Source: Mesoterricola sediminis (GTDB lineage: Bacteria > Acidobacteriota > Holophagae > Holophagales > Holophagaceae). Taken from it: a DNA stretch of 64,000 nt. The notes beneath the pieces are model-generated. The model saw nothing but the letters and a program-made list of their open reading frames with translations, had not been told where the DNA came from and ran no database searches. Position numbers and translations under genes: made by a program. This document shows positions 31,377-52,490 of the stretch, one piece after another. Numbering within the stretch: position 1 is the stretch's first letter; each line of letters opens with the position of its first letter. The DNA is taken from positions 2,773,001 to 2,837,000 of the forward strand of contig NZ_AP027081.1 in the NCBI RefSeq assembly GCF_030295425.1, read 5' to 3'.

Positions 31377-34300
31377 ATGGAAGATAAAAAACCCGCATTC
31401 CACCTGGACGACTTCTTCGCCTTCCGGATTCCCTTGCTCCCCTACCGGGACTGGGAAACGTGGAGTGAGGGCCTGCGCGCCGCTCCGGCCCAGGCTGGCC
31501 CGGATGGATTCCGTCAGGCCTATGCCTTCGACATGGAACTTCTGCGCAGTCGCCTCCGCCTCTGGGCGGCACGTCCCGAAGTCAGGGAAGCCCTTTTCGT
31601 GGCATCACCGGACCTGGTGGACAGCCTGCCCCGATGGGCCGAAACCCCAGACAGCGAAGGAGGCCGCCGAACGGAACGGGCCTTGGTCCGTTACTTGGCC
31701 CGGATGTGCAACCGCCCCACCCCTTTCGGCCTGTTCGCCGCCCACGGAACCGGCCACCTGGGTCCCGAGACCCGCCTGAGCATCGCCCCCCGGGTATCCT
31801 GGAATCGCCATTCCCGGCTGGACATGGGCTACGTTGACCAGTTCGTGGCCGTGTTGGAACAGGATCGCGGTCTCCGCGGAGCCCTCTCCTTCCGGCCCAA
31901 CTCCAGTCTTTATACCGCGGGCGGGCAAATCCGCTGGGTTCGCAGTTGGATCGAGGCCGGCGGACGCCGGTTCGAACTGATGGGCGCCAGGATGGACGAC
32001 CCCCTCCGCGCCTTGCTGGAAGCAGCCCGGGACGGAATCGGCCTGACGGGATTGACGGACCTCCTTTGGGATGGTGAGCTGGCCCAAGAGGAGATCCATG
32101 GGTACCTTCATGCCGTGATTGACCGCCAGATCCTGGTGTCAGACCTACAGCCCCCGGCGACGGGGAAGGAGCCTTTGAAAGGATTGGCGGCCCAACTTGA
32201 CCGGACGCCATCTTCCCAGGCCATGGCCACGTCCCTGTCCCATGTAGCCCGCTTGCTGGAGGACTTGGATTCCCGCGGGTTGGGCCAACCCCCGGAGGCC
32301 TACCGGGCCTTGAGGTCCGCCCTGCCACATGCAGACTCGGGGCCTTTCGGCTCAAGGCCTTGGCAGGTGGACCTTTTCCACCCGCCCGACTCCTTCGCCC
32401 TGGGGCACAGCCTGCAGGCGGAGATCATGGCCGCGGTGACCTGTTTGAGGCGTTTCGGCTTCCGAAGGCCCTTCGATCCCCTCGGCCCCTTCAAGGCGGC
32501 CTTCACCCGGCGCTATGAGGACCATTGGCCGCCCCTGCTGGAGGCGCTGGATCCTGAATCCGGCATCGGTCTCGACGGAACCGGCGGTGACGTGGCGTTG
32601 GGGGTCCCCCTGCTGGAGGGGCTCGAAGGGAAATCCTTGGAAGCCGCGGAGGAGTCCGGGGAATCGGCCTTTACAGCCCTGGAGGCCCACCTGCTGAAAC
32701 GGATCCAGGCCCTGGAAAGTTCCATCCCGCCATGCCTGGATTTGCAGGAAGCGGACATGAAGGCCCTTAACCGTGAACCGGCGGTGCCCCTGCCGGATTC
32801 CTTTTCGCTCATGGTGGAGTTGGCTGGCCGATCCGTCGAGGCCTTGGATTCCGGCGACGGGTGGATCCTGGTCCATGCTGGAGGGGGACCCTCCGCGGCC
32901 AGGATGCTGGGGCGTTTCTGCCACGGGGATCCCGATCTGGCCTCCAAGGTCCGCAGCCATTTGAAACGGGAGGAGGGGCTCCGACCGGGGGCCCTCTTCG
33001 CCGAGATCGCGCACCTGGGGGAAGGCCGGATGGGCAACGTTCTGGCGCGGCCCGTCCTGCGGGACTACGAGATCCCTTGCCTGGGACGTTCGGGAGCGGA
33101 GCCGGACCGGTGGCTTCCCCTGGAGGACCTTCATGTGGGGCTGCGGGGTGAACGCCTGGTCCTATGGTCCCGCAAGCACGACCGGGAGGTGCTGCCGCGC
33201 CTTGCCAGCGCCGCCGCCTACCAGGACCGCGGCAACGAGATCTACCGATTCCTAGGGCTTCTTCAGGACCAGGGCGTCCAGAACTTCCTGGGCTTCTCCT
33301 GGGGACGGCTCGAAACCGAGCCCTGCCTGCCCCGGCTCACCTGCGGGCGGATGGTGTTTGCCCGCGCCCAATGGCGCCTGGAGACGGCGGATCTTGACCC
33401 CATCCGGCGCGCTTATGACGCCCAGGGCCGGTTCCTAGCATTCCAGGAACTCCGGCAGGGGCGGAGGCTCCCCCGGCGTCTGGTACTGGCGGACAGCGAC
33501 CAGGAACTGCCGGTGGACCTGGACAACCCCCTGAGCGTCGAGGCCTTGTGGTCCCTGCTCCGAGTCCGGAAGGGGGCCGTGCTGCTGGAGGATTTCCCCT
33601 CCGCAGACCTCCTGCCGGCGCGTGGCCCCGATGGCGCCTACCGGCATCAACTCATCCTGACCTTCCTGGGGGAGCACGGACAGGTTCCGCTACCCGAGCC
33701 TCCGCCTCGGCTCGGCCGAAACCCCGTCCTTCATGCCCCAGGTTCCGAGTGGCTGTACGCCAGGCTCTACATGGGCCGGCACACCGCGGACAGACTCCTG
33801 GCCGGCGCCCTGGGTGGATGGATCCGGGATGTGATGCGGTCAGGCATGGCGGACCGCTGGTTCTTCCTTCGCTACTCGGATCCTGAGCCTCACCTGCGCC
33901 TGCGCTTCCACGGTGATCCAGGGATCCTGTGGGGGCACCTCCTTCCCAGCCTCAAGCTCGCTGCGCAACCCTGGCTCGCCGAAGGCTCCGCCTGGGGGTT
34001 CCAGTTGGATGCCTATGTTCCAGAAACCGGCCGCTATGGCGGCACGGACAACCTGGAGCGGGCGGAACGGGTCTTCCAACTGGACAGCGATGCAGTCCTG
34101 GAATGGCTCGGGTCCGGCGCCGGCAGCCCCGGCGCCGACCGCTGGAGGCTTGCCATGGTCAGCGTTGACGGCTACTACGAGGCCGCAGGATTCACCCTGC
34201 AGGAACGGCTGGCCCAGGCCCGGGCGCGCAGGGAGGACTTCCGCGTGGAATTCGGCCTCCACCGCCCGGAACGCCGCCAGCGCCTGGGTGCGGCGTTCCG

Positions 34301-34598
34301 GCGGGAGCGGCCGGCGCTGTCCCGGATCCTGGCCGGCCCGGAACTCGAGCCCGGCGGCCCCGCCCTGGCCATCCTGGAAGCCCGGAATTCCCGGTTGAGG
34401 GTGGAACTTGAGGCCATGCGGGCCCTGGAGGCTTCAGGCGGCCTGGAGGGCTCCTTCGAGGCCGTACTGGCCAGCCTCCTGCACATGTCCATCAACCGGC
34501 TCCTGGCTTCGGCCCAGCGGCCCCAGGAGGCAGTGATCCATGATTTCCTGGTCCGCTGGTACGAATCCTGGCTGGGCCGGGACCGGAAGGCACCCTAG
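31377..34598 (+). CDS. lanB: Lanthipeptide dehydratase LanB (full length)
   Basis: 1073 aa from MEDKKPAFHLDDFFAFRIPL. The long N-terminal glutamylation domain (about 10-690) contains YLARMCNRPTPFGLFAAHGT, the conserved PTPFGLF motif. The C-terminal SpaB_C/elimination domain (about 745-1065) contains WLYARLYMGRHTADRLL and WFFLRYSDPEPHLRLRFHGD. Such proteins glutamylate Ser/Thr using Glu-tRNA and eliminate to Dha/Dhb. The single chain holds both halves, as in NisB. The stop is 2 bp before the hlyD-like gene. No good ribosome site is seen, but the protein begins where homologues begin. Confidence 0.92.
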   Translation: MEDKKPAFHLDDFFAFRIPLLPYRDWETWSEGLRAAPAQAGPDGFRQAYAFDMELLRSRLRLWAARPEVREALFVASPDLVDSLPRWAETPDSEGGRRTERALVRYLARMCNRPTPFGLFAAHGTGHLGPETRLSIAPRVSWNRHSRLDMGYVDQFVAVLEQDRGLRGALSFRPNSSLYTAGGQIRWVRSWIEAGGRRFELMGARMDDPLRALLEAARDGIGLTGLTDLLWDGELAQEEIHGYLHAVIDRQILVSDLQPPATGKEPLKGLAAQLDRTPSSQAMATSLSHVARLLEDLDSRGLGQPPEAYRALRSALPHADSGPFGSRPWQVDLFHPPDSFALGHSLQAEIMAAVTCLRRFGFRRPFDPLGPFKAAFTRRYEDHWPPLLEALDPESGIGLDGTGGDVALGVPLLEGLEGKSLEAAEESGESAFTALEAHLLKRIQALESSIPPCLDLQEADMKALNREPAVPLPDSFSLMVELAGRSVEALDSGDGWILVHAGGGPSAARMLGRFCHGDPDLASKVRSHLKREEGLRPGALFAEIAHLGEGRMGNVLARPVLRDYEIPCLGRSGAEPDRWLPLEDLHVGLRGERLVLWSRKHDREVLPRLASAAAYQDRGNEIYRFLGLLQDQGVQNFLGFSWGRLETEPCLPRLTCGRMVFARAQWRLETADLDPIRRAYDAQGRFLAFQELRQGRRLPRRLVLADSDQELPVDLDNPLSVEALWSLLRVRKGAVLLEDFPSADLLPARGPDGAYRHQLILTFLGEHGQVPLPEPPPRLGRNPVLHAPGSEWLYARLYMGRHTADRLLAGALGGWIRDVMRSGMADRWFFLRYSDPEPHLRLRFHGDPGILWGHLLPSLKLAAQPWLAEGSAWGFQLDAYVPETGRYGGTDNLERAERVFQLDSDAVLEWLGSGAGSPGADRWRLAMVSVDGYYEAAGFTLQERLAQARARREDFRVEFGLHRPERRQRLGAAFRRERPALSRILAGPELEPGGPALAILEARNSRLRVELEAMRALEASGGLEGSFEAVLASLLHMSINRLLASAQRPQEAVIHDFLVRWYESWLGRDRKAP

Positions 34599-34600: not shown

Positions 34601-35809
34601 ATGCCCGCCCCCGCCGGTGCCCCCCTGTTCCGCCAGGAAGCGCTGGAGGCCTATCTTCGCGACCGGAACGGCCGGGAAATTCTGCGGGTGAGCCCCCTCT
34701 GGAGTTGGACCGTCACGGTGACTCTCGCCTGCCTGCTGGCGGCCGCGCTTGCCTTCGCCTTCCTGGGGAAGGTCGATGTCATCGAGAAAGGCCCGGGCAT
34801 CCTGCGGCCGCAGGGCGGTGTGCGCCTCCTCTCGGCCCAGGCGGAAGGGGTGATCTCCCAGGTGCTGGCCAGGACCGGCGACCCGGTCAAGGCGGGGGAT
34901 CCCATCCTGCGGCTGGAGGCCCCCCAGCTCAAGGGCGCCATCCAGGAAGCGGACCTGACCCTGGCTGCGCACGTTCGCGAACAGGCAGAGGTCGCCGACA
35001 ACCAGGCGTCCCTGTTCGCGCAACAGAGGGCCATGGCCCAGGTCCGGGTCGAGCATCTTGAGCGGGAGACAGCGAGTTTCCTCCGCACCCGTGACCGCGC
35101 CGCCGATCAGCTCTCCGCCCAAAGGGAATTGCACAGGCAGGGCCTCATCAGCCGGATGGAAATGCTGGATCATGAAAACCGGTTCGATGCCGCCCAACGG
35201 GATGTCGCTTCCGGCGAGAGCGAGCTGAGCCGGGCCCGCCAGGAGCTGGCCATGCTGGAGACCCAGCGGCGGCAGCAGGTGTGGCAGCAGAAGACCGGGG
35301 TTGCCCTGGCCCAGGCACGGCGCGTATCCCTGGAACACCGCCTGGGGCAGACGCTCATTGCCAGCCCGGTGGACGGGATCGTGGACGGCCTGGTCCTGCG
35401 GGCGGGGGATCTGGTCAGCCCAGGTGCCGTGACAGCCAAGGTGATCCCCCTCGGCACGCCCCTCAGGGTCATCGCCTTCCTCCGGGAAAAGGACAGGGCC
35501 TTCGTGCGCGAAACCGATCCGGTGACCCTGGAACTGGCGCAGTATCCCCACGCCGAATTCGGGACCCTCAAGGGACAGGTGGTGCGGGTGGGCACGGATC
35601 TGGCGGGCCCGGCGGAAATCCAGGAAGCCTTCGGCGTTCCCGAAGGACCGGTGGCCAGTCCCAGCTTCCGGGTGGAAATCCAGCTCGACCCGGGTCAGGG
35701 GAATCAATGGAACCTCCGATCGGGCATGCTGCTCGAGGCCCGGTTCACCCTGCGCCGCCAGCGTCTCGCGGCCCTGGTCCTTGACCCGCTCCGCCGGTGG
35801 CTGCGTTGA
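34601..35809 (+). CDS. HlyD-family periplasmic adaptor of the lanthipeptide exporter
   Basis: 402 aa. A cytoplasmic head (residues 1-35) is followed by one membrane helix (about 36-57, WTVTVTLACLLAAALAFAF) and a barrel-sandwich/lipoyl half (VISQVLARTGDPVKAGDPIL, LIASPVDGIVDGLVLRAGDL). A long coiled coil lies between (about 115-235). It would link the inner-membrane ABC exporter to an outer-membrane channel, showing a Gram-negative type I-like export route. Overlaps the C39-ABC gene by 4 bp if that starts at TTG 35806. Confidence 0.9.
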   Translation: MPAPAGAPLFRQEALEAYLRDRNGREILRVSPLWSWTVTVTLACLLAAALAFAFLGKVDVIEKGPGILRPQGGVRLLSAQAEGVISQVLARTGDPVKAGDPILRLEAPQLKGAIQEADLTLAAHVREQAEVADNQASLFAQQRAMAQVRVEHLERETASFLRTRDRAADQLSAQRELHRQGLISRMEMLDHENRFDAAQRDVASGESELSRARQELAMLETQRRQQVWQQKTGVALAQARRVSLEHRLGQTLIASPVDGIVDGLVLRAGDLVSPGAVTAKVIPLGTPLRVIAFLREKDRAFVRETDPVTLELAQYPHAEFGTLKGQVVRVGTDLAGPAEIQEAFGVPEGPVASPSFRVEIQLDPGQGNQWNLRSGMLLEARFTLRRQRLAALVLDPLRRWLR

Positions 35810-35949
35810 GCCGGCGCGCACGGGTCCCCTTCATCCCCCAGATGGAGAACGCGGAATGCGGGGCCGCCTGCCTCGCCATGATCCTGGGCCGCCTGGGCCA
35901 TCACGCGCCGTTGCCGGAGGTGCGCCAGGCATGCAATGTGGGCCGCGAC
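35806..35949 (+). pseudogene. C39 peptidase-ABC transporter, 5' fragment cut by IS element
   Basis: First 48 codons of a LanT-type transporter, from TTG 35806 (overlapping the hlyD stop; GTG 35797 is the alternative). They hold the peptidase C39 active site: oxyanion Gln12 and Cys18 in PQMENAECGAACLAMIL. The frame runs to GRD at the IS junction. Joined to the 3' fragment at 39851 after removing the element and one target copy, it gives a continuous protein of 713 aa, the usual size of C39-ABC exporters, with no base lost. Confidence 0.92.
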
Positions 35950-36061
35950 TTGGATGCTAACCAAAACCAGGCCGCTTCTGCTCTCCAGAAGCAGTCCACA
36001 CCTGAAACAGGATCGGAATCCTGGGCGGATGGCAGCCATCAGCGAAACTCCGGGCCAGGGC

Positions 36062-36102
36062 AGCACTCGGGGCGGAGGCCGTAGGCCGGAGCGCCGAGTG
36101 CT
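36062..36102 (-). terminator. Inverted repeat after istB, probable terminator
   Basis: AGCACTCGG (36062-36070) pairs with CCGAGTGCT (36094-36102) around a GC-rich loop that can fold further. It lies 31 bp past the istB stop, inside the left end of the element. Confidence 0.5.
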
Positions 36103-36132
36103 GTCCTGGCCCGGGGTCTGGGGGCTCAGGGC

Positions 36133-36858
36133 TCAGCCCTGTGGGTCACGCAGGGACACGCCGTTGATGCGCACCGTCTTGCACCGGTGCCGCAGCCGGC
36201 TCAGCAGGGCTTCCACCAGTCCCGGGTTGCCCAGGAAGTTCTGCCACTCAGGGAAGTCCAGGTTGGTGGTGATGATCGTGGGGTAGCGGTTGTAACGCTC
36301 CTCCATGAGCTTGAAAAAGATGTTGGTCTGCTCCGGCTTGATGTTCAGGTAGCCCAGTTCGTCGATCAGGAGGACCTGGATCCGGGACAGGCGTGTCAGG
36401 AGCTTGCGGGAGGACCTGTCCGCCAGGGAGGCGTACATCTCGTCGAACAGGTCCTGGGCGCGGATGAACAGGCCGCGGTGCCCGTTCTGCAGGGCCTTGA
36501 GGAGGATCCCGGACGCCAGCCCCGTCTTGCCCACCCCGGTCGGGCCGATGAACACGATGTTCTCGGCCTTGGCGATGAAGTCCAGTTCACCGAAGGACCG
36601 GATCTGGCGCTGGTTGACGGAGGGCTGCTGCTTGTAGGGGAAGCTCTCCAGGGTCCAGTTCTCCGGAAGCCTGGCCTGCCGGATCCGGTAGGCCATCGCC
36701 GATTCCTGCTGGTGATGCCATTGCGCCCGCAGCAGCCGCGCCAGGAACTCCTCGTAGGAGGGCTCCTCCTTGGCGGCCTCCGCCAACTCCTGGTCCAGGA
36801 TCTCGGCCATCCGCCCCAGATGCAGGTTTCTGAGCAGTTGCTCCAAGTCATCCTTCAT
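36133..36858 (-). CDS. istB: IS21 helper ATPase IstB
   Basis: 241-aa AAA+ DnaA/DnaC-like ATPase: Walker A IGPTGVGKTGLASGIL (about 103-118), Walker B IQVLLIDELGYLNI, sensor TTNLDFPEWQNFLG. IstB assembles on target DNA and activates IstA. Its start overlaps the istA stop by 11 bp, the normal arrangement. Full length, no damage seen. Confidence 0.96.
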   Translation of the reverse strand: MKDDLEQLLRNLHLGRMAEILDQELAEAAKEEPSYEEFLARLLRAQWHHQQESAMAYRIRQARLPENWTLESFPYKQQPSVNQRQIRSFGELDFIAKAENIVFIGPTGVGKTGLASGILLKALQNGHRGLFIRAQDLFDEMYASLADRSSRKLLTRLSRIQVLLIDELGYLNIKPEQTNIFFKLMEERYNRYPTIITTNLDFPEWQNFLGNPGLVEALLSRLRHRCKTVRINGVSLRDPQG

Positions 36859-38281
36859 GGTCGTCCTCCTTGGGATCAGGGGTGGGGTCGCCGGCGGTGT
36901 CTCCGAGTACGAAGTACTCCCGGGCGATGTGCCGAAGCACCATCCGGTCCAGCCGCTCCAGGTCGAACAGGCCGTATTCCAGGGCGGTCCCGATGGCGGC
37001 CAGCAGCGGGGCGCGGGGGTAGTCCCGGACCATGGCCTGCAGCCGCCTCAGCATGCGCAGCATCCGGCCCGGATGCCGGACCCGGAAGGCGGCGACGTAC
37101 CCGGCCAGGGCCGGCTCTGCCAGCAGCAGGTCCACCTCCTCAGGGCTGGTGGTTCGTTTGCTCCGGCCCTGGCCGCGAGGGGCCCGGTGGGCGGGATCGA
37201 TCACCCGCTGGCCGGAGGCGTCCAGCACCTTGCGGTGGGTAGCCACCTGCCTTGGACCAACAAAGACCTCGATCTGGTCGCGGGTCTCCCGCACTTCGAG
37301 CTGGTGGCCGATCAGCGCATAGGGGATGGAGTAGCGGTTGCCTCCGATGCTGACGAAGCCCTGGATGTCCCCGATCCTCTGGTGGAGCTGGTAGACGGTG
37401 GGGACCCAGATGGGCAGCGGCCTGAGCTGGGTCCGCTCCTCCAGGAACAGCTCCCTCGGGCTGGCCTGGAGGCTGCGCTTGCGGGTGGCGTTGACCTTCT
37501 CGCACCAGTCCCGGGCCTGCCGGTTGAGATCGTCCCAGTCCCGGAATTCGCGGCCGGCCAGGAAGTTGTTCTCGATGTAATCGAATGGCCGCTCCACCCG
37601 GGCGCTGCGGTTGGCATGGCCCAGCGCATGGGCGCGGAACTCGAATCCGAACCGCTCGGCGAATGCCGCCATCTCCGGCGCGGGGATCATGGACGCCCCC
37701 GTGCCCTGGGACACCACCACGTGGGTGTTGTCGATCATGCAGCGGGCGCAGGCCCCACCAAAGAACTGCAGGGCTTCCGTGAGGAACACCTTGCACCAGA
37801 AGCGGTTGAAGGTCGGGTAGTACTGGTGGAACAGCATCCGGGAATGGCAGAGCACCAGGCTTGCGTCCTGGATGAGGAGCATCCGCTCCCCGATCCGCAC
37901 CCGGTGCGGACTGGTGTCGTGCTGCATCTCCTCGCCGGGTTGGAAATGGTATTCCCCGGAGGGCTGGGGTCCCGGGTGGCCGATGCCGTGGCGGCGGCAG
38001 AACCCCGTCAGCGCCTGGTAGGACAGGTCGGCGCCGCGTTCGCGCAGGATCTCGTGGACCCGGATCAGGTTGCCCTTGCAGGCCGGGAACAGTTCCAGGA
38101 TCTCCTCCCGGTGCGGCTCGGCCTTCTCCGGCCGCTGGTTTTCGGGGATCGTCGGGGCCCCTGCCGCCAGCACCCGGCCCACGGTGTCCCGCGAGGCCCT
38201 CACGGCCCGGGCGATGCCCCGGATCGTGTGCCCCTGCTCGCGGAGCACCAGGATGGCGGTCCGTTTCGACTCGTCAAGCAT
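36848..38281 (-). CDS. istA: IS21 transposase IstA
   Basis: 477 aa from MLDESKRTAILVLREQGHTI. N-terminal helix-turn-helix (IRGIARAVRASRDTVGRVLA), then an RNase H-fold DDE domain: Asp in LLIQDASLVL, Asp in ARCMIDNTHVVV and Glu in ARVERPFDYIENNF. The C-terminal beta-barrel-like part begins about residue 300 (FVSIGGNRYSIPYALIG). The start at 38281 overlaps the ParB-like stop by 8 bp; a longer reading to 38548 is only antisense/other-frame overlap. Confidence 0.94.
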   Translation of the reverse strand: MLDESKRTAILVLREQGHTIRGIARAVRASRDTVGRVLAAGAPTIPENQRPEKAEPHREEILELFPACKGNLIRVHEILRERGADLSYQALTGFCRRHGIGHPGPQPSGEYHFQPGEEMQHDTSPHRVRIGERMLLIQDASLVLCHSRMLFHQYYPTFNRFWCKVFLTEALQFFGGACARCMIDNTHVVVSQGTGASMIPAPEMAAFAERFGFEFRAHALGHANRSARVERPFDYIENNFLAGREFRDWDDLNRQARDWCEKVNATRKRSLQASPRELFLEERTQLRPLPIWVPTVYQLHQRIGDIQGFVSIGGNRYSIPYALIGHQLEVRETRDQIEVFVGPRQVATHRKVLDASGQRVIDPAHRAPRGQGRSKRTTSPEEVDLLLAEPALAGYVAAFRVRHPGRMLRMLRRLQAMVRDYPRAPLLAAIGTALEYGLFDLERLDRMVLRHIAREYFVLGDTAGDPTPDPKEDDHEG

Positions 38282-39155
38282 GGGGCAGCTCTCGCTCGCT
38301 GCGCTGGAACAGGGCCTGGCAGTCGCCGGCGGCCTGGCGCAGGGCGGCGCTGGCCTCCTGGACCTCCGACGCGGAGTGGTGCAGGACCAGCGCCCCGCGG
38401 CCCAGGTGCTGCTTGGCCCTGCGGGCCACCGCCGCCAGGGTGCCCAGGTCCTCCAGCCAGAGATGGAACGGGTTGGCCAGGCCCTCCGGGGCCGCCAGGG
38501 CCCGCTGGGAGCGGAGGAACAGCACGGGATCGGCCAGGAGGCGTTCACGGGCCTCGGCCCGGCTTTGCTGCCAGGCGGCCTTGAGGGCCACGGCCTCCCG
38601 GGTGGTGAACGGGGCCTTCAGCAGGGCCGTGCACAGGTTCAGGCAGTCCCGGCGGTTGGCGCGCGCCAACGGGACCAGGACCTTCATGGCGGTGTGGGCG
38701 GAAAGCCGGCCGAATAGCACGTGCTCCTGCACCTCGCCGGGCAGTTCCTCCACCAGGGCCAGCCGCCGGGATACCCAGCTCGGGGTGCGCCCGAAACGCC
38801 TGGCCAGTTCCTCGGGCGGCATCTGGAACCGGTCCCGCAGCTCGCACAGGAACCATGCCTCCTCCAGGGCGCTGTCCGGCTCAGAGGTCCGCATCATCCG
38901 CTCCAGCAGCAGGGCATCGACCTCGCCCAGGTACCAGAGGGCGGCCTCCAGCGTGTCCCGCTTCAGGCGGCGCAGGGCCCGGAAACGCTTGTAGCCGTCC
39001 AGGAGGGCGTAACGGTCCTGCCCCAGGGCCAGCACCACCACCGGCACCTTCTGGCCATCCGCGGCCAGGGAGGCCAGCAGTTGACGCTCGCCCTGGGGAT
39101 CACGGCGACGCAGATGCTCGTAGCGGAGATCGATCTGGTGGAATTCGAGGTCCAT
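38274..39155 (-). CDS. ParB-like nuclease-fold protein carried by the IS element
   Basis: 293 aa from MDLEFHQIDLRYEHLRRRDP. The N-terminal ParB/Srx fold (LLASLAADGQKVPVVVLALG, then DRYALLDGYKRFRALRRL) is followed by a helix-turn-helix typical of ParB/KorB (MPPEELARRFGRTPSWVSRR). It overlaps istA by 8 bp, so it is part of the transposition operon. Standard IS21 elements carry only istA and istB; a role in regulating or guiding transposition is inference. Confidence 0.82.
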   Translation of the reverse strand: MDLEFHQIDLRYEHLRRRDPQGERQLLASLAADGQKVPVVVLALGQDRYALLDGYKRFRALRRLKRDTLEAALWYLGEVDALLLERMMRTSEPDSALEEAWFLCELRDRFQMPPEELARRFGRTPSWVSRRLALVEELPGEVQEHVLFGRLSAHTAMKVLVPLARANRRDCLNLCTALLKAPFTTREAVALKAAWQQSRAEARERLLADPVLFLRSQRALAAPEGLANPFHLWLEDLGTLAAVARRAKQHLGRGALVLHHSASEVQEASAALRQAAGDCQALFQRSERELPHA

Positions 39156-39328
39156 GGCGCCACCCGAAAGGACGGCCAACAGGGTAGGAAACCCCGGGGG
39201 AGCCTTTCGAGGTCGTCTCGCAGGTGGAGGGGGGGAAGTATGTCTTTATTTTATTGATTCCATAGGAGGTTGGGCGGAAGCTGCGTCTCGCGGCCGGGAA
39301 ATATCATGTTTGTCGATACCTCGTGATT

Positions 39329-39673
39329 TCATTTGAGTTGCACGAGAACTGCGTCTCGCGCCTGGCGCAGGAGGACTTTGCCGCTCTCCTCGACCAGGGC
39401 GCTGATTTCCAGCCCGACCACCTTCCGGGCGTAGCGCCAGTCGATGGCCTCCGCAGGCACCGTCCCCTTTCCCCCGGCCCCCACCTGCACCAACTTGGCG
39501 GTGAACCGGGTGTGGCGGTCGTAGTCCGGGTCCCGGTCATGGAACCGGGCGCAGGCCCGCCGGTGCCGCTCCTTCTGGCAGGAGGGGGCCCCGCAGACGC
39601 GCTGCCGCTCCCCAACCATCCGGTCTGGGTGGAACCATTTCCTGCAAATAAGGCAGGGCCGAGCCTTGAGCAT
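39329..39673 (-). CDS. Small zinc-binding protein of the IS element
   Basis: 114 aa from MLKARPCLICRKWFHPDRMV. It has two Cys pairs (CLIC, then CGAPSC) followed by a basic stretch (QKERHRRACARFHDRDPDYD), a zinc-ribbon look often seen in small DNA-binding proteins of mobile elements. The C-terminal half (ALVEESGKVLLRQARDAVLV) is helical. First gene of the element's operon, 173 bp before the ParB-like gene. Family not recognised; role in end recognition or regulation is inference. Confidence 0.65.
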   Translation of the reverse strand: MLKARPCLICRKWFHPDRMVGERQRVCGAPSCQKERHRRACARFHDRDPDYDRHTRFTAKLVQVGAGGKGTVPAEAIDWRYARKVVGLEISALVEESGKVLLRQARDAVLVQLK

Positions 39674-39841
39674 GCCGGGCCTCCTTGGAAAGGGGGTGCT
39701 CAAGCCTGTCCGGCCTCCACGCTCGGGACCAGGGGGAACAAGGAGAGGTGGCCGATTCTGGAGAGCAGGGATGCTCAGGTCTCAGCCGCCGATGGCCTGG
39801 TTTTGGAGAGCAGGCCTATGCCGATTCTGGAGAGCGTCGAA

Positions 39842-41848
39842 GGCCGCGACGGCGCCACCGCCGCGGGCATCCTCCGCGCCGCGGTGGGATACGGCCTGGA
39901 GGCCGACGCCTACCACGCGGAGGTGGAGGAACTGGCCGGTCTGCCCATGCCCCTGATCCTTCACTGGGAATTCCGCCACTTCCTGGTCCTGGAGCGGATC
40001 ACGGGGCGCAAGGTTGTCCTGATGGACCCGGCCCAGGGGCGCCGCAGCCTGGACCATGGGCGGTTCCGCGAAAGCTATACCGGTGTGGCGATGACCTTCA
40101 GCCCCGGACCCGCCTTCCGGCCCCGGAGGAAGCGCCTGCCGTCGAGGGATCGCTACTTCGCCATGATCCGCGAGCACCTGCCGTCCCTCGGGCTGGTGCT
40201 CCTGGGCAGCCTGTGGCTCCAGGCCCTTGGTCTGGTGCTTCCGCTGGGCCAGAAGGTGCTGGTGGACCAAGTGCTCCTGCCCCGGCGGGAAGGCTGGTTG
40301 TGGGGTCTCGCCGCCGCCCTGGCCGGAGCGGCCTCCGCCCAAGCCCTCCTCAGCTACAGCCGCATCCGGGTGCTCCAGAACCTGCAGGCGACCACCAACC
40401 TGGCCCTGGCCCGGAGCTTCATGGGACACCTGCTGGCCCTGCCCATCGCGTTCTTCCTGCAGCGCGGAAACGGCGACCTGGTACACCGCCTGGACAGCCA
40501 AGGGGAGGTCCAGAACCTCTTCACCGAGCGCAGCGTGGCGGCGCTGCTCGATGCGTTCCTCCTTGCAGGGTATGCCACCCTGATGGTCGCCTTTCACGCA
40601 AGGCTGGGCGCCCTGGTTATTCTCTTGAGCCTGACCCAGGTGGCCTGCCGGTGGGCGATCCGGGAACGGAAAGCGCGCCTGATGGCGGCCGAACTTGCCG
40701 CCGCCGGCAATGCCAGTTCCGTCCTGGTGGAATCCCTCTCCACCCTGGAAACCATCCAGGTCGCTGGCGCCGGAAGGGTGTTCGTCCAACGCTGGGCCGA
40801 CGCGCGGATCCCGAGCCTCAACGCCGCGCTGGAGCGCCAGGGCCTGGAAGCGAACCTGGGCGCCGTGGATGCCTGCCTTGGCCACCTCGGCGCCACCCTG
40901 GTGCTCCTGGCCGCCGGTTGGGAGGTCCTGAACCATTCCATGACCCTCGGCACTTTTTCCGCCTTCCTGACCCTCCAGACCCTCCTCCTGGTGCCACTGT
41001 CAGCCCTGCTGGAGGCCTGGGGCCAACTTCAAGGTCTGGGGAGCCATCTGGCGCGCCTGGACGATGTCATGGAAGCCCGCCCCGAGCCGGGGGGGGACCG
41101 GGATCCCGGCAAGCTGACCGGCGCCATCGACCTTGCCGGCGTCAGCTACCACTTCCCGGGGTGCCCAGAGCCCGCGTTGGCTGGAGTAGACCTGCAGGTG
41201 AAGGCCGGATCCATGGTCGCCCTGGCCGGACCCACCGGAGCCGGCAAATCCACCCTCGCGCGGCTCTTGCTGGGGATGCACGTTCCCGATGAAGGCAGCA
41301 TCCGATTCGACGGCCTCGATCTGCGCACCCTGGACCTGCCCCACCTGCGCCGGAATCTGGGCGTGGTCCACCAGGACACCTTCCTGCTCAACGACACCGT
41401 ATGGGCGAACCTGGCCCTGCAGGCACCGGATCTTCCCCGCGAGCGCCTCATCGAGGCAGCACGGTCAGCCCGCGTCCATGAGGTCCTCTCCGCACTGCCC
41501 CAGGGGTACGACACGGTAATCGGCGAGAACGGCCTCACGCTCTCCGGAGGTCAGCGCCAGCGCCTGGCCCTGGCCAGGGCCCTGGCACCACGACCGGCCA
41601 TCCTCCTCCTCGACGAGGCCACCAGCGCCTTGGACCCAGAAACCGAGGCGGCCGTTCACCGGAATCTCGCCGGACTAGGGTGCACCCGAATCGTCATCGC
41701 GCATCGTCTGGCGACCCTGGCGGATGCAGATCTGATCCTGGTCCTGGAACGGGGCCGGGTGGTCCAGCGCGGCCGGTACCGTGAGCTGGCGGAATGTCCC
41801 GGGCTTTTCCGGACCATGGTGGAATGCGAACGTGGCCCGAACCCCTGA
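39842..41848 (+). pseudogene. C39 peptidase-ABC transporter, 3' fragment
   Basis: Starts in the second target copy; useful sequence from 39851 (GATAAGILRAAVGYGLEADA). It holds the rest of the C39 domain with the catalytic His and Asp (LHWEFRHFLVLERI, VLMDPAQGRRS), a six-helix membrane domain (about 40180-41030) and an ABC ATPase: Walker A GPTGAGKSTLARLLLG, signature LSGGQRQRLALARAL, Walker B ILLLDEATSALDP, switch IAHRL. In intact form it would cut the precursor after Gly-Gly and export it. A shorter protein from an internal start could keep ABC function but not the peptidase. Confidence 0.92.
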
Positions 41849-43811
41849 ACCGGAACGGCTGGAGGGAATCCGGGCCCAGGAAGCCCTGCGCCGGCTGCTG
41901 GCGGCCCGGGGGCTGGAGCCCGGACCGCCAGCCATGGCCCTGGACCGCGAGGGCCTGGCCACCGAACTGGAGCGCCACGGACTCCAGGGTCGCTGGGTGG
42001 ATCTGGAGCCCCAGGATGTTCCATGCCTGGAACTGCCCACCTTGGCCGCCCTGGCCAACGGCACCTACCTGCTGATCCTGCCCACGCGACACGGCCGGAT
42101 CCATGTTCAAGGCTCCGCTTCAGAAGAGACCATGGAAATCCGCGCCCTGCCGAAAGCGGCCTACCTCGATCTGGCGGCGGGTCTGGCGGAGGGAAGTCTG
42201 GTCCGGACCCTCATCCGGACCCTCCTGGCCCAGAAACGGAGGGTGCTGGAGATCCTGGCCGCGATGGTGGCGGTCCAGGCCGTCGCACTCCTGGTTCCCC
42301 AGTTCACGCGGATCCTGGTGGACCGGGTCTTCCCTTCGGGGGCAAAGTCCACCTTCCAACTGGTCCTCTGGGCCAGTGCCTTCACCGGCGTCTACCAGGC
42401 TTGGATCCTTTGGCTTCATGGCCGGTACGAGCGTTTTCTCGGCGCACGCCTCGGCTTGGTCCTGGAGCAGGGGCTGTTGTGCCGGCTCCTGCGCCTTCCC
42501 TGCGCCTGGATCCGCGGCCGAAGCCAGGGCCAGCTCCTGCAGGGCATCGCTGGACTTCAGGCCGCGCAGACCCTGCTGACCGGCCACTTCCTGGAGGCGG
42601 TTGGCGAAGGATTCACCACCCTGGCCTGCCTGGGGATGATGGTGAGCATCCTGCCAGGCGCCACCGGACTTTTCGCTGGACTGGCCCTGCTCTGCCTGGG
42701 CCTCACCCTCCTGGCCGGGTTCCGGGTCGTGAACCTGGAGGCGCAGGTGGTGGAAGCCCAGGTTCGCGAGCGTGGATTCCTGATCGAGATCCTCCGTGGC
42801 ATCACGTCCCTCAAGGCCTCCGGCGCAGAACGACACGTAGGGGAGAACTGGGCCCGGATGGCCTCCCGGCGCTGGAGCCTTAACCTCGGCACCCGGCGCG
42901 CCGCGGCTTCCGCAGGGGCCAGTGTGGCCTTCATCCAGATTCTCGGCGTCCAGGGCTTGACCCTCTGGGGAGGCCTACAGGTTCTGCAGGGAAACCTGCG
43001 CCTCGGGGAACTGCTGGCCTTCCTGATGCTGGCGGCCTCCCTCCAGCAGGCGATCTCCGGCCTCGGGGACACCCTGCTCCAATGGTGCACACTCAAACCG
43101 CAGCTCGCAGAAGTCCGAACCATCCTGGAGACGCCAGCCGAACCCGTGCCGCCGGTCCTGACCGCAAGCGCCCGCCAACCCGCAGGGATCGACGTCCAGG
43201 ACCTGGCCTTCCGCTACAGGCCGGAGCGGCCCTGGGTCTTCAAGGGGCTGGATCTGGTGGTGCCCCCCGGGGAGAAGGTGCTCCTGAGCGGCCTGTCCGG
43301 ATGCGGCAAATCGACCCTCCTCAAGATCCTGGCCGGGCTCTGTCTCCCCGAGCGGGGCCTAGTCGTGCTCGGGGGCCTGCCGCCGAGGCGGGCCCGGGGC
43401 CTGGTGGCCTACCTTCCGCAGTCCGTCCAGCTCTTCAATGGCTCCCTGCGGGAAAACCTGAGGCTGCTGTCCGGGGGTGCCGGGCGCGAGGAGCTGGAAG
43501 CGGCCGCCCTGGAAACTGGGTTGGCCCGCCTGGTGGCGACCCTGCCCATGGCCTGGGAGACCCTGGTGAGCCCTGGAGGGGACAACTTCTCCGGAGGCCA
43601 ACGCCAATTGATCGCGCTGACCGCGGCCATCGCAACGCCCAGGCCCGTCCTGCTCCTGGACGAGCCCCTGGCCAACCTCGACCCGATGGCCAAGGCCGCC
43701 CTCCTTCAAGGCGCCCTGTTTAAAGCCAAAACCGTGATCATGGCCAGCCATGACCTCACTCACCGCCACGCAAGGAAGGAAGGCAACGTCTTCAGGGTTG
43801 TGGACCTGTGA
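41832..43811 (+). CDS. Second ABC exporter with catalytically dead C39-like domain
   Basis: 659 aa from GTG 41832, overlapping the first transporter by 17 bp. The N-terminal ~130 residues look like a C39-like domain without the Cys motif (TLAALANGTYLLILPTRHGR matches the His-side strand but His/Asp context is lost). Membrane domain about 150-430; ATPase with GLSGCGKSTLLKILAG, FSGGQRQLIALTAAI, VLLLDEPLANLDP and MASHDL. C39-like domains in other exporters bind substrate without cutting. It may pair with the first transporter as a heterodimer or serve in immunity; not decided by sequence. Confidence 0.86.
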   Translation: MARTPEPERLEGIRAQEALRRLLAARGLEPGPPAMALDREGLATELERHGLQGRWVDLEPQDVPCLELPTLAALANGTYLLILPTRHGRIHVQGSASEETMEIRALPKAAYLDLAAGLAEGSLVRTLIRTLLAQKRRVLEILAAMVAVQAVALLVPQFTRILVDRVFPSGAKSTFQLVLWASAFTGVYQAWILWLHGRYERFLGARLGLVLEQGLLCRLLRLPCAWIRGRSQGQLLQGIAGLQAAQTLLTGHFLEAVGEGFTTLACLGMMVSILPGATGLFAGLALLCLGLTLLAGFRVVNLEAQVVEAQVRERGFLIEILRGITSLKASGAERHVGENWARMASRRWSLNLGTRRAAASAGASVAFIQILGVQGLTLWGGLQVLQGNLRLGELLAFLMLAASLQQAISGLGDTLLQWCTLKPQLAEVRTILETPAEPVPPVLTASARQPAGIDVQDLAFRYRPERPWVFKGLDLVVPPGEKVLLSGLSGCGKSTLLKILAGLCLPERGLVVLGGLPPRRARGLVAYLPQSVQLFNGSLRENLRLLSGGAGREELEAAALETGLARLVATLPMAWETLVSPGGDNFSGGQRQLIALTAAIATPRPVLLLDEPLANLDPMAKAALLQGALFKAKTVIMASHDLTHRHARKEGNVFRVVDL

Positions 43812-43881
43812 AGCCGCACGCCGGGTCGAGGCATGTTCAGGGGAAGGTCCGATTCCAGGCATGGTAGCCTCCGGAGATCCC

Positions 43882-44607
43882 ATGACGAACACGCCCGCCG
43901 ATGCCCCGCCTGAACACGACCTGGACTTGGTGCGGCTCTATCACCAGGCTTTAGGAGACCCGCCCGGAACCGTGGATGAGGCAACCTGGCAAGACCTGGC
44001 CATGGATGATGTCTTCGGCAAGATGGACCGCACCGCGAGCTGGGCCGGAAGCCAGATCCTCTACCGGTGGATGAGGGTTCTTGAACCCGAGGACCGGATT
44101 CTGGAGGCCCGGTCCCGGAACTACCAAACCCTCCGGAACCACAGGGCATGGATGGACCGGGCCAGGGCAATCCTGAAGCCCCTCGGGGAATCCGGCGGCG
44201 CCTTCCTGGCCCCGTTCCTGATCGTCGGGCTGCCGGACCAGCTCCCGCGTCCATGGCTCTACATTCTCTGCGCCCTGGTCCCCCTGCCCTGCTTCCTGGG
44301 ATGTTTCCTGGCTCCCTGGCTTTTCCTTCCGGGACTGGCCTTTCTTTGCGTGAATATCCTCATCAACACCATCCTCGGGCCGAAGCTGGCCCCGTACTAT
44401 CCGGCCTTCTCTAGGATCCACGCCCTGATCGAGGTGGGCGACACCCTCGCGGCCCTACGGGAAGCACCTCCCCTTCCGGAAATCGACCGCCTGCGTCAGT
44501 GCCGCCCGGCCATGGCACGGGTGCAGGCGCGCCTGAGCACGCTTTCCGTGGACCGCAGCCAATTGTCAGAACTGGCCGCGGCGATCTTCGGCTACCTGAA
44601 CATGCTT
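43882..44607 (+). pseudogene. MutS-like membrane ATPase, 5' fragment cut by IS91-like element
   Basis: 242 codons from ATG 43882 (CGGAGA ribosome site): MTNTPADAPPEHDLDLVRLY... with two hydrophobic segments (about 108-150, LYILCALVPLPCFLGCFLAP) and a helical stretch ending AIFGYLNML. The frame continues in the fragment at 47024 as FLLDIICFLRAV, an exact fit to MutS-lever-type sequence. Membrane-bound MutS-like proteins occur in some RiPP and other clusters; their job is unknown. The current frame continues into the element to a stop at 44655. Confidence 0.8.
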
Positions 44608-44746
44608 GGACGAAGCCGCTTCGCGGCAGGGGTGATCAGCGTCCGTCCAGCCTGATCGTCCAATAAGGCTTGCGGGATCTACAGCTTGCAGTCCCCATGG
44701 ATGTGGCGGTGTTACAGCACCAGCCCCACATTCATGGAGGACTGCA

Positions 44747-45586
44747 ATGGCGGTCAGTTTATCTCTGTCCCGGTTCGCCGGGGACCTTCAAATGGCGAAC
44801 CGCGCCCATAAGACGATCCAGCAGTACGTCGCATCGGTGAGGCGTTTCGAGGAATTCCTTGGCCACGACCCATGCGACGCCAGCCAGGAATCGGTGCGGC
44901 GGTGGGTGGACGTCCTCCGGCAGCAGGCCATCGGAGCCTCCCGGCTGGCCCTCCACTACTCAGCCTTGAAGTTCCTCTATGCCCGGACCCTGGGCCAGCC
45001 CGAGAAGGTGGCCTGGATCACCGTCCCCAAGGCCAAGGCCCACCTGCCTTCCACCTTGAGCCAGGCTGAGGTTGCGCGGCTGCTGGACGGGTTCACCACC
45101 ACGAAATACCGCACCTTCTTCACTCTGGTCTACGCCACCGGCCTGCGGATCAACGAGGCCTGCCGGCTCGAGACCCGGGACATCGACGCCATGCAGCAGG
45201 TGATCCACGTCCGCGATGGAAAGGGCGGCAAGGACCGGATGGTGCCCATGGGGGCCAAGCTCTACCGGGCGCTGCGGACCTACTACAAGCACATGCAGCC
45301 CCCGAAGCCTTGGCTGTTCGCCTCCAAGTCGGGAGGGCCCCTCTGCGCGGACACCGCCCGGCGCGCCCTCCTTTGCGCAGCGGCCGTCTCCGGCATCGGC
45401 AAGTTCGTGAACCCCCACCTTCTGCGCCACGCGTTCGCGACCCACCTGCTGGAGAGCGGCGAGGACCTGCGCAAGATCCAGGTGGTCCTGGGCCACGCCA
45501 GCATCACCTCCACCCAGATCTACACCCAGGTGGCGCCAGGCCAGATCGCCGCCGTGCGAAGCCCTCTGGAGGACCTGCCGGAGTAG
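44747..45586 (+). CDS. Tyrosine recombinase of the IS91-like element
   Basis: 279 aa with a good ribosome site (GGAGGA). SAM-like N-terminal domain (KTIQQYVASVRRFEEFLGHD) and a complete catalytic set: Arg in VYATGLRINEACRL, Lys in GKGGKDRMVPMG, HLLRHAFATHLLESG, and LGHASITSTQIYTQV with the Tyr. Xer-like in length. It ends 4 bp before the transposase start, so the two are co-transcribed. Confidence 0.92.
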   Translation: MAVSLSLSRFAGDLQMANRAHKTIQQYVASVRRFEEFLGHDPCDASQESVRRWVDVLRQQAIGASRLALHYSALKFLYARTLGQPEKVAWITVPKAKAHLPSTLSQAEVARLLDGFTTTKYRTFFTLVYATGLRINEACRLETRDIDAMQQVIHVRDGKGGKDRMVPMGAKLYRALRTYYKHMQPPKPWLFASKSGGPLCADTARRALLCAAAVSGIGKFVNPHLLRHAFATHLLESGEDLRKIQVVLGHASITSTQIYTQVAPGQIAAVRSPLEDLPE

Positions 45587-45590
45587 GGCG

Positions 45591-46715
45591 GTGGGGTTCA
45601 CCCGACCCCGTTTCGACATCGCCGACATCGTCCGCCTCCACCGCGACGCCCTGGAAAGCCGGGTTGCCTTGAACCGGCAGCAGCGCCGCGTCCTCACGGC
45701 CATCGGCCAATGCCGCACCGCGGCCCTGGGCGGGCACAAGGAGGTCTGCGAGCACGGTGACTTCGAGCGGATCGCCTACAACTCCTGCCGGGACCGGCAC
45801 TGCCCCAAGTGCCAGGCCCTGGCCCAGGAACGCTGGCTCGACAAGGAGACCCAGCGCCTCCTGGACGTGCCCCACTTCCACCTGGTGTTCACCCTCCCGG
45901 CGGAACTGCGGTTCCTGGCCCGGCAGTATCCGGCCAAGTTCTACGGCGCCCTGTTCCGGGCAGCGACGAAGACCCTCCTGAAGCTGTTCCGGAGCCGACT
46001 GAAGGCCATTCCCGGCCTGCTGCTGGTGCTGCACACCTGGACCCGGGAGTTGACCTTCCACCCCCACCTCCATGTGCTGGTCACCGCCGGGGGCCTCGCC
46101 CTCGACGGCGGAGGCTTCATCCCCAGCGGGAAGAATTACCTGTTCCCGGTGGCCATGATGGGTGAGGTGTTCCGGGCCAAGATGCTCAACGCCCTGGGCC
46201 GGCTCCAGGCGAAGGGCGCCTTCCCTGAGGTCCCGAAGGAACTCTACGCCAGTCGGATGGCCACGGTCAGCGATCTGGACTGGGGCGTCCACGCCAAGAA
46301 GCCGTTCGGGCACTCCAGCCATGTGGCCGGCTACCTGGCCCGGTACACCCACCGGGTCGGCATCGCCAACTCCCGGCTCCTGGACGTCACCGAGGACCGG
46401 GTGACGTTCGCCACCAAGAACGGCAACACTGCAACGGTCCACCCCGTGGAGTTCCTCGAGCGCCTGGTCCAGCACGTCCTCCCCCCGGGCTTCCACAAGA
46501 TCCGTCATGCCGGCCTCTACGGCTCCCTCCAGGCTGGCGGCCTTCTGGAGAAGGCCAGGGCCATCGTCGGGACCTGCAAGAAGCCCCGGAAGGATCCATC
46601 CGACCTGGAACGGGTGGAACGCGAATCCCAGACCTGCCCGGTCTGCGGCGGGGCCCTCCGTCGGACACCCCTGCCCGCCACCATCCGCGCACCGCCCGAG
46701 GACGATCCATGCTGA
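45591..46715 (+). CDS. IS91-family transposase (HUH/Y2 type)
   Basis: 374 aa from a GTG. N-terminal zinc-binding region (CEHGDFERIAYNSCRDRHCP, then KCQ), HUH metal motif in TFHPHLHVLVTAGG, and the catalytic Tyr region GYLARYTHRVGIANSRLLDV. A C-terminal Cys pair (CPVCGG) is present. Appears full length and undamaged, so this copy may still be active. Confidence 0.92.
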   Translation: MGFTRPRFDIADIVRLHRDALESRVALNRQQRRVLTAIGQCRTAALGGHKEVCEHGDFERIAYNSCRDRHCPKCQALAQERWLDKETQRLLDVPHFHLVFTLPAELRFLARQYPAKFYGALFRAATKTLLKLFRSRLKAIPGLLLVLHTWTRELTFHPHLHVLVTAGGLALDGGGFIPSGKNYLFPVAMMGEVFRAKMLNALGRLQAKGAFPEVPKELYASRMATVSDLDWGVHAKKPFGHSSHVAGYLARYTHRVGIANSRLLDVTEDRVTFATKNGNTATVHPVEFLERLVQHVLPPGFHKIRHAGLYGSLQAGGLLEKARAIVGTCKKPRKDPSDLERVERESQTCPVCGGALRRTPLPATIRAPPEDDPC

Positions 46716-47023
46716 CCGTCCCCACAACGCCCATGACATCAACTCCCGGCCTGCCCGGTTGGGGTGGCTGGACCGGGGTCTGCCTGCACCTCAGCATCCC
46801 GCCGGGAACGGTGATCCCGAAGGGCGAATCTGAGCCCCACGGAACGATCCAGGGAGCCATCGGGTCCCCTCCCGGGCTCCGACCCATTTCGAAATCCCCA
46901 TAGCCCGGTTGCGCCGGCCCCCTGCCGCTACGGGCCTGTCCAAGAACGTAAGATCGGGCTGCGCGTCAGCGCGCCGGTCAAGGCGTACGCTCGTGTTCCT
47001 GCGAGCCCGATTTACTAACTATT
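46716..47023. other. Noncoding 3' end of the IS91-like element
   Basis: About 300 bp without a credible gene. From 46899 it contains GC-rich imperfect hairpins and the terminal sequence that recurs inverted at 49013. By analogy with IS91 this would be the rolling-circle origin end; that is inferred from its position after the transposase. Confidence 0.55.
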
Positions 47024-48130
47024 TTCCTGTTGGACATCATCTGCTTCCTCCGGGCCGTTCCAGCCCTGCGCCGGGACCGTGAGGAACTGCTGGCTCTCCT
47101 GGAAGCCCTCGGGTCCCTTGATGCCGCCATGGGCTTGGTCCGCTACCTGGATGGGATTCCAGAAGGCCATGTCGAACCCGTGTTCACGCCGGACCGAGAA
47201 GTGGAGATCGCGGGTGCCTACCACCCCCTGCTCTCCCGGCCCGTGCCCAATGACCTGGCCCTCCGAAACCGATCCTGCCTCATCACCGGCTCGAACATGG
47301 CCGGCAAGACCACCTTCATCAAGACCATCGGCATCAACATCCTGCTCGGACAGACCCTGCACTTCTGCCTGGCCCGGCGCGCACGCCTTTCCCGACTCCA
47401 GGTGCAATCCTCCATTTGGCGCAGCGATCACCTCGAAGCAGGCCAGAGCTATTATCTGGCGGAGGTGGACCGCTTGCGGGAGTTCGTGGAGGTCGAGCCG
47501 GGCAGTCCACCGAAAGTCCTGCTCATCGACGAGATCTTCCGGGGAACAAACACCCTTGAGCGCCTCGCGGCTGCCACCGCGGTTCTTTGGCACCTCCAGC
47601 AGCAGCACCTGGTGCTGGTCACCACGCATGACTTGGAATTGGGCGATGCCCTCGCAGGCCGCTTCGATCTCTACCACTTCTCCGAACAGGTCGTGGAAGG
47701 GACCTTCGGGTTCGACTTCAAACTGCGCCCCGGGCCCGTCTACACGCGCAACGCCATCCGGCTCCTGGAACTCCGCGGATTCCCTGCCTCCATCACCGAG
47801 GAAGCCCGCCGCCTCGCCAACTCAAGTCGATCCGAGATGGGCAACGACGTGCCACAACACGTCATGGACCAGATGGGGAATCGCCGCGGCGGCCCAGCCC
47901 AGCCAGAAGGACCGGGGGCGCCAGGAGAGGAAGGCCGCCGTCATGATGAAGAAGGCCCAGTACGGGTTCAGGAATCCCAAGTGGAACCCGTTGAAATGGA
48001 GGGCCCCCCACACCAGCGCGGATATCCCGGAGAGAACCACGATGTTGGTGATCTGGGGGGCCAGCAAGGAGGCCAGCCCGACGACCATGAAGGTTTCCAG
48101 AACGGGGCCCAGAAGCACCACAAGCCATAG
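47024..48130 (+). pseudogene. MutS-like membrane ATPase, 3' fragment
   Basis: Continues the fragment at 43882. The MutS-type ATPase core is intact: Walker A ITGSNMAGKTTFIKTIGINI, YYLAEVDRLREF, Walker B VLLIDEIFRGTNTLERLAAA and the His switch VTTHDLELGDAL. The family-like part ends near 47818 (EEARRLANSS); the open frame runs on to 48130 through the antisense of the CPBP-like gene with no sign of protein selection, so the natural stop may have been lost. Reassembled, the protein would be about 510 aa plus any tail. Confidence 0.78.
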
Positions 48131-48423: not shown

Positions 48424-48675
48424 TCAACAGACCCTATTTCGGGTACAGTTCGTGGCAGAAGAATAGGGAGGTGGCGGCGGGCAACCCTGCGTATGGTTCT
48501 GGATTCTCCGCCTCCAGTTATCCAGATTCTGGGGGGTATAAACGCAGTTGATCTGAGACCAACGAACGATGGTCGGGGTCGCTGGTGTGGTGCCGCCGGC
48601 CACTGCGTCGGTCTCGCTGACCACCTGGCCACTCAGTGGCATGATGACTTCGGTTTCGAGGGAAAGTTTTCGCAT
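48424..48675 (-). CDS. lanA: Putative lanthipeptide precursor (Gly-Gly leader, Cys/Thr-rich core)
   Basis: 83 aa. The leader, residues 1-28, is MRKLSLETEVIMPLSGQVVS followed by ETDAVAGG, ending in a double-glycine site suited to the C39 peptidase of this cluster. The 55-residue core starts TTPATPTIVRWSQINCVYTP and contains four Cys (44, 65, 77, 83, the last being the C-terminus), eight Thr and three Ser, a Trp/Arg-rich middle (NWRRRIQN) and five Pro after Cys65. Such a composition suits dehydration by LanB and ring closure by LanC. AGGTG lies 6 bp before the ATG. No similarity to a named lantibiotic was recognised. Disulfide-only maturation is the main alternative. Confidence 0.78.
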   Translation of the reverse strand: MRKLSLETEVIMPLSGQVVSETDAVAGGTTPATPTIVRWSQINCVYTPQNLDNWRRRIQNHTQGCPPPPPYSSATNCTRNRVC

Positions 48676-49012
48676 GGCGGCACCTGTGGTAGGAGAGCTG
48701 ACATGTGTTGGAAAGGACCTTGAGCCGCGTGCCACGGATGCACGTTGCCCGGCGTCCTTGAACGTGATTCAAGGTGGGTACAAGGTTCCATGGCCGGCCA
48801 TCCGGGTCGCCGGTACAGGAAACTGGCCAGAACGTGGACGGCTGCAAGGCACGTTGGCACCACGGCAGGGTGGCCACCTTCTTTTCCTAAATCCTTCTGG
48901 ATCCCGGTGGATAGAGTCCCAGAGAGTGGTGTAAGAGCCGGGTAGGCATACAGTTGGCCACCGTTCCCCGTATGTTTGTTTTTGCGGGAACAACATAGGA
49001 GCGGAAAACGAT
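48676..49012. promoter_or_regulatory. Region upstream of the precursor gene, with palindrome
   Basis: About 340 bp without a credible gene. It contains a perfect 7-bp palindrome CCTTGAA-CGTGA-TTCAAGG at 48756-48774, about 80 bp before the precursor ATG, a candidate regulator site or small hairpin. At 49001-49012 there is an AGGAG-spaced ATG reading only three codons (MAR) before the IS91-like remnant, possibly the beginning of a gene destroyed by that insertion. Confidence 0.4.
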
Positions 49013-50178: not shown

Positions 50179-50193
50179 GCCCGTAGAGCCTGC

Positions 50194-51018: not shown

Positions 51019-51068
51019 GGTGCCTTTCCTTTCGCTCATCGTTCCAGGGTCCCGGACATCTGCATGCT

Positions 51069-52298: not shown

Positions 52299-52490
52299 CT
52301 GAAGGGGAGTCGGTTCGTTGAACGTCGGGTTTCCAGGTCCATTGTATACTTATTGGTTCATCTTCCATGTTCCCTTCTCGCCCTTCCTGGCCAATCCTCG
52401 ACCACGTAAGGCTTCCGCATAGCCAGCACCCTGGGTTTGCCTTTCCCTTCAAGACCAAGAGATCCTGACCAACTACGCCTTGAGGAGGCG

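Follow-up and report, generated by a model that had tools for sequence, protein, structure and literature searches.

Walker et al. 2020 (PMC7268733) described LxLxKx5L leaders in class I lanthipeptide precursors, several of which came from Bacteroidetes. Many of these precursors have leaders that end in GG, and a C39 protease is often, but not always, encoded in the cluster (PMC7268733). The locus analyzed here lies in a 64,000-nucleotide stretch of the Mesoterricola sediminis genome (hereafter, the window; G000:C1:2773001-2837000 of a 4.5-Mb genome in a single contig). It resembles the LxLxKx5L Gly-Gly class I type (PMC7268733; NF038153, lant_leader_L1a) in the presence of LanB and LanC, the LxLx-x-x5-L spacing and GG end of the leader, and the genes for a C39-type exporter, but differs in that the leader has Thr where the motif has Lys, is three residues longer ahead of GG and gives no match to NF038153, the core is unrelated, and the linked C39 gene is disrupted. 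With nisin-type class I systems, which have an FxLD leader and the LanP serine protease, the locus shares the LanB/LanC chemistry, as judged by domain content, whereas the peptide has a GG leader without FxLD, and no subtilisin-type LanP is present among the window genes examined. The export cassette is related to the NHLM/NHLP systems (TIGR03794, TIGR03796, TIGR03797): TIGR03796 is the best match for the C39-ABC gene, and the HlyD and second ABC genes best match these or type I secretion models, although all these scores are under the curated cut-offs, and the precursor has no match to the nitrile-hydratase-like leader. Within the genus, the precursors of genomes G067 (two peptides) and G069 (one) have the same leader type and lie in lanB/lanC/hlyD/lanT loci, but their cores can be aligned with that of the window only in short stretches, their lanT genes are intact, and their lanA genes are located upstream of lanC.

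By sequence, the features of a class I lanthipeptide system are present, namely, a full LanB, a stand-alone LanC with the zinc motifs, a shared leader, and a core containing Ser/Thr and Cys. The predicted peptide is best filed as a divergent LxLxKx5L-type member with a new core in the already known Gly-Gly class I architecture. The first-pass annotation had implied a conflict between class I and a Gly-Gly leader cut by a C39 enzyme; given that LxLxKx5L leaders ending in GG beside C39 have already been reported (PMC7268733), calling such peptides odd, on the view that class I implies FNLD and a serine protease, is now outdated. The present locus adds Holophagaceae to the groups with Gly-Gly class I lanthipeptides, and its core is uncharacterized; in the open-access literature, we found no paper naming Holophaga-type taxa together with lanthipeptides. 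An acidobacterial source had also been considered unusual, but LanB was found in 25 of the 77 relatives searched. In many Holophagaceae genomes (L039-L055, mostly of genus g3, Geothrix-type), a full-length LanB homologue (~38% identical) occurs with no LanC match genome-wide; these bacteria may make a different RiPP or a dehydrated peptide.

The predicted precursor and its homologue

48424..48675, minus strand: predicted lanA, 83-aa lanthipeptide precursor (translation, G070 homologue upstream of lanC/lanB, conservation tests)
48592..48675, minus strand: leader-coding part, MRKLSLETEVIMPLSGQVVSETDAVAGG, with LxLx(K)x5L spacing and Thr in place of Lys

The 83 codons translate to the leader MRKLSLETEVIMPLSGQVVSETDAVAGG followed by the core TTPATPTIVRWSQINCVYTPQNLDNWRRRIQNHTQGCPPPPPYSSATNCTRNRVC and a stop codon. 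The leader (residues 1-28) ends in AVAGG, and the 55-aa core (residues 29-83) contains four Cys (44, 65, 77, 83), eight Thr and three Ser, with PPPPP after Cys65; all these features, listed in the first-pass annotation, were reproduced by translation. Its statement that no known family is recognizable agrees with the lack of matches to the peptide in Pfam, NCBIfam and PHROGs, and none of the curated leader families matches either. The PHROGs search of the peptide and the neighboring ORFs gave no indication of a phage origin for the precursor, and no lanA relatives were found in viral contigs. No sigma-70-like promoter was found for lanA, and its codon usage is atypical compared to the long genes of the window (log-odds -16.5), so that composition alone is insufficient to predict a gene here and the case must rest on comparison. 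Motif scans and the leader model described below identified no second precursor in the window, and the leader model matches the genome once.

When 77 genomes of the family were searched in six frames, a homologue of lanA was detected in the genus-mate G070 (G070:3162264-3162542; E 1e-6, 43% identity over residues 2-70), and the next best match had E 0.015. The homologue starts with GTG preceded by an AGGAG-type ribosome-binding site and reads (V/M)EKLSFKAESIMPLNSVSDSEMQWVVGG in the leader and TSPTPTTIRLVNN...VDVWKRRLG...PTCWC in the core. The two leaders are of equal length (28 aa) and identical in 14 of the 28 positions, with an alignment score of 57 compared to a maximum of 38 in 5000 shuffles; the core score of 56 was reached by 5 of 5000 shuffles. 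Nucleotide mismatches between the two genes are most frequent in the third codon position (13, 9 and 21 in positions 1, 2 and 3, respectively). The number of Cys residues differs, four in lanA vs three in the homologue, and their positions are poorly conserved, although the C-terminal Cys is kept. In G070, the lanA homologue is followed by lanC (~0.35 kb on) and by a LanB domain (2.4 kb on) that is 52% identical to LanB of the window. The chief argument for reading 48424-48675 as LanA is this adjacency to lanC/lanB in another species, and it bears out the original call of a Gly-Gly-leader precursor of the lanthipeptide type. On these comparisons, the ORF very probably represents a genuine lanA gene. 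The homology rests on one relative; no credible further member was found in 396 genomes of the phylum, where the sole additional match (G423, E 4.7e-4) contains a stop and was taken as noise. For the predicted core, no curated family gives a match, and only two species are known to have it.

The leader family

The lanA motif L4-S-L6-E-T8-EVIMP-L14 reproduces the LxLxKx5L spacing exactly, with Lys replaced by Thr and no NCBIfam match; no FxLD/FNLD motif is present in the 28-aa leader. The lanB+lanC locus of G067 encodes precursors with the leaders MKKLELTKETIVPLVDAQASSVHGG and MKKILIERETILPLNEQQALSVNGA, that of G069 encodes one with MKLQLNVETLEVLLADHSAEVHGG, and G095, which is further removed within the phylum, encodes a leader that includes RLTLDRETVRRLTREDLSRVGG. 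A Gly-Gly or Gly-Ala end is present in all these leaders of the genus: AVAGG in the window, WVVGG in G070, SVHGG and SVNGA in G067, and EVHGG in G069. Similar leaders adjoin LanB homologues from Kofleriaceae, Myxococcus, Paenibacillus, Accumulibacter and Acidobacteriota, including Holophagaceae.

With a leader model of ten sequences, matches at E <= 1e-8 within the genus were confined to G000, G067 (twice), G069 and G070, all of which contributed leaders to the training set. All these matches are in genomes with lanB/lanC and lie at those loci, except for the 13.8-kb gap in the window; nothing of note was detected by the model in the genus-mates G066 and G068. The first-pass annotation made its reading depend on a conserved leader in related loci, and the leader type is indeed found at the lanB/lanC loci of genus-mates. 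An HMM built from 16 other leaders, with those of the window and G070 left out, placed lanA at rank 124 (E 150) among 37,339 ORFs, a miss caused by the 3-residue insertion and the Thr for Lys substitution. The lanA leader appears to be a divergent member of the LxLxKx5L type with these two changes, the three extra residues preceding GG.

G067 encodes two adjacent precursors (L053:12045-12476, minus strand) whose cores, TTSAICATARTTTHVITLTTSRNTCGSLHTCRWSGITTQKCD and STVACAGFTVVTRWTKFTTSANTCGTLDSCPTRRGITTVAC, are rich in Thr and Cys; the exporter there is intact, and the pair possibly represents a two-peptide system. No precursor was identified by the leader motif beside lanC/lanB in G019; a leader-type peptide with a Cys-rich core, KKLSLNKETVRSLSEVQAADVAGG, is encoded in this genome (L176, G019:C30:103038) on a contig different from that of the lanB/lanC locus.

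Modification genes, the split exporter and the probably rearranged locus

29928..31265, minus strand: lanC, LanC-like cyclase, 445 aa (PF05147, 3.6e-33)
31377..34598, plus strand: lanB, class I dehydratase, 1073 aa, glutamylation and elimination domains (PF04738, 1.3e-147; PF14028, 1.5e-59)
34601..35809, plus strand: membrane-fusion protein of the HlyD family, part of the export cassette (PF13437; TIGR03794/TIGR01843)
35824..35946, plus strand: lanT, 5' piece, covering the start of Peptidase_C39 and carrying the catalytic-Cys motif ENAECGAACLAMIL (PF03412 model positions 2-42; G000:2808824-2808946)
35950..39841, no strand assigned: IS21-family element in lanT (IstB 36133-36858, IstA 36848-38548, accessory ORFs)
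39842..41848, plus strand: lanT, 3' piece, with the remainder of C39 and the ABC membrane/ATPase domains, NHLM_ABC1-like (C39 model 41-131)
41832..43811, plus strand: second ABC transporter, NHLM_ABC2/type I secretion-like, without a C39 domain (model matches)
43854..44606, plus strand: MutS-like ATPase gene, 5' part (uninterrupted in G066)
44607..47023, plus strand: element with a tyrosine integrase and an IS91-type transposase (identical copies at five other genome sites)
47024..48130, plus strand: MutS-like gene, 3' part (MutS_V; homology to G066 extends to 47833)

LanB is encoded by one intact full-length ORF and matches the solved lantibiotic dehydratases 5ehk and NisB in the PDB. LanC, aligned to solved LanC-like proteins, keeps the AHG, WCYG and CHG motifs with the zinc ligands (Cys, Cys, His); NisC itself matches it weakly. 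The gene order in G067 is lanA1-lanA2-lanC-lanB-hlyD-lanT-ABC2, and its lanB-hlyD-lanT-ABC2 portion is that of the window. The ORFs at 52494-57280, beside the precursor, were considered as LanB/LanC candidates and rejected as frames without domain matches, the real lan genes being located at 29.9-35.8 kb. The first-pass annotation assigned the precursor to the same locus as lanB, lanC, HlyD and C39-ABC genes; all these genes exist, but lanB ends 13.8 kb off, with two mobile elements in the interval, and the C39-ABC gene is split. If both insertions are subtracted, the distance between lanA and lanB is ~7.5 kb.

The IS21-family insertion, which was not mentioned in the first-pass annotation, splits the C39-ABC gene into two pieces 3.9 kb apart that cover positions 2-42 and 41-131 of the C39 model, with the break just after the catalytic Cys, whose motif in the 5' piece is ENAECGAAC. 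A possible start codon for the 3' piece, ATG at 39818, falls within the end of the element. The element is flanked by the direct repeat GGCCGCGAC (35941-35949 and 39842-39850), and a second near-identical copy is present at 1.93 Mb, with one mismatch in 3897 bp, indicating that the insertion in lanT is recent. In G067 and G069, the C39 domain next to lanB is continuous. A linked intact C39 peptidase is absent both at the window locus, where it is split, and at the G070 locus.

Between the exporter and the precursor, the MutS-like gene, which has a paralogue elsewhere in the same genome (L182, 62-64% identical), is broken at 44606/47024 by the 2.4-kb element carrying the integrase and the IS91-type transposase; this split, too, had gone unmentioned in the first-pass annotation. 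A decayed copy of the end of the IS91-type element (78% identical) is located on the opposite strand at 49019-49479, just upstream of lanA. In the relatives, lanA is upstream of lanC, whereas in the window, it is found inverted at the distal end of the cassette; lanC is inverted relative to lanB as well. It is a reasonable inference from this arrangement that the locus was rearranged by IS21/IS91-type elements.

Predicted maturation and the alternatives

Under our working model, which we regard as highly probable, 48424-48675 encodes the LanA of a class I Gly-Gly lanthipeptide that would be modified by LanB and LanC and, if it is cut at all in this strain, would be cut by a C39 peptidase in trans. 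The LxLx...L motif of the leader would dock on LanB (31377-34598), which would dehydrate Ser and Thr residues of the core via glutamyl-tRNA, and LanC (29928-31265) would then couple the dehydrated residues to Cys. All four core Cys residues have a Ser or Thr 3-5 residues upstream, so up to four small rings are possible, with S40-C44, T62-C65, S72/S73-C77 and T78-C83 as the predicted pattern. The modified peptide would be exported through the HlyD/NHLM-type ABC system, with the C39 peptidase cutting after Gly28, and the product might have an antibacterial role.

Because the linked lanT is split, leader removal needs the unlinked NHLM-type C39 exporter, or else the pathway is dead in this strain. 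The only complete C39 domain in the genome (G000:4031769-4032152) belongs to an unlinked NHLM-like cassette at ~4.03 Mb, whose exporter would presumably do any cutting in this strain. G070 likewise has a single C39 exporter, unlinked and 56% identical to that of the window genome; the side of its lan genes that was examined contains no exporter, the neighbors being mscS, moeA and tupA-type genes. Lanthipeptide clusters dependent on proteases encoded elsewhere are documented (PMC8960859). Processing in trans is plausible in both species on this genomic evidence, and in G070, the leader is probably removed by the unlinked C39 exporter. A broader proposal appears rather doubtful: the mature product would be a new class I scaffold with several small rings set around a linear center rich in Trp/Arg and Pro, it would be made from lan loci with no functional exporter in place, and a single conserved NHLM-type C39 exporter encoded elsewhere would cut and export it in trans, thereby serving RiPP loci dispersed in the genomes of the genus.

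The strongest alternative, against which we lean only slightly, is a decaying pseudo-cluster in which the precursor is real by descent but no mature peptide has been exported since the IS21-family element split lanT and the IS91-type element moved or isolated lanA. This alternative opposes the trans-processing part of the model alone and not the identity of the gene. The recent insertion within the C39 domain fits it, as do the IS91-type element, with five further identical copies, between the exporter and the precursor, the decayed end copy at 49019-49479 and the failure to find a promoter-like site; however, the reading frames of LanB, LanC and the precursor are intact, an intact NHLM-type C39 exporter is encoded elsewhere in the genome, and G070 keeps lanA-lanC-lanB without any linked exporter. 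With the exporter broken, product mining in the window strain may fail, and the G070, G067 and G069 loci are better starts. The locus could also show, in a simple test, whether peptides that have lost their own exporter are matured by an unlinked C39 exporter.

It is unlikely that LanB and LanC make a product with few rings, or one mostly dehydrated and uncyclized, in which the Trp/Arg-rich and Pro-rich stretches stay linear. The core is long (55 aa), only two relatives are available with poorly conserved Cys positions (4 vs 3 residues), and the conserved N-terminal T-rich stretch has no nearby Cys, all compatible with such a product; yet a LanC with zinc motifs adjoins LanB in the genus-mates that have this leader type, each Cys follows a Ser or Thr at 3-5 residues, and the C-terminal Cys is conserved. 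Finally, a chance ORF with no gene at 48424-48675, as the poor codon-usage score and the lack of matches in curated family libraries might suggest, is very improbable given the leader, core and start site conserved beside lanC/lanB in another species and the bias of substitutions to the third codon position.

Returning to the predicted lanthipeptide locus, its surroundings include several other genes. The region from the precursor to the RecD2-type helicase (48700-54000; the helicase is at 54802-57987) has a lower G+C content (~0.60), little convincing coding potential and few homologues. An AbiEi-like antitoxin gene is located at 53280-53936 (plus strand; PADLOC 1.9e-46, with Pfam AbiEi_4 below cut-off), with no obvious AbiEii partner. 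Directly adjoining lanC is a stretch of defense genes (24366-28816, plus strand) with a low G+C content (0.48-0.57), which encodes Shedu SduA (24366-25667, plus strand; PADLOC 2.4e-142) and a Gabija-like pair, GajA (25767-27557; 6.3e-47) and GajB (27539-28816; 1.2e-23).
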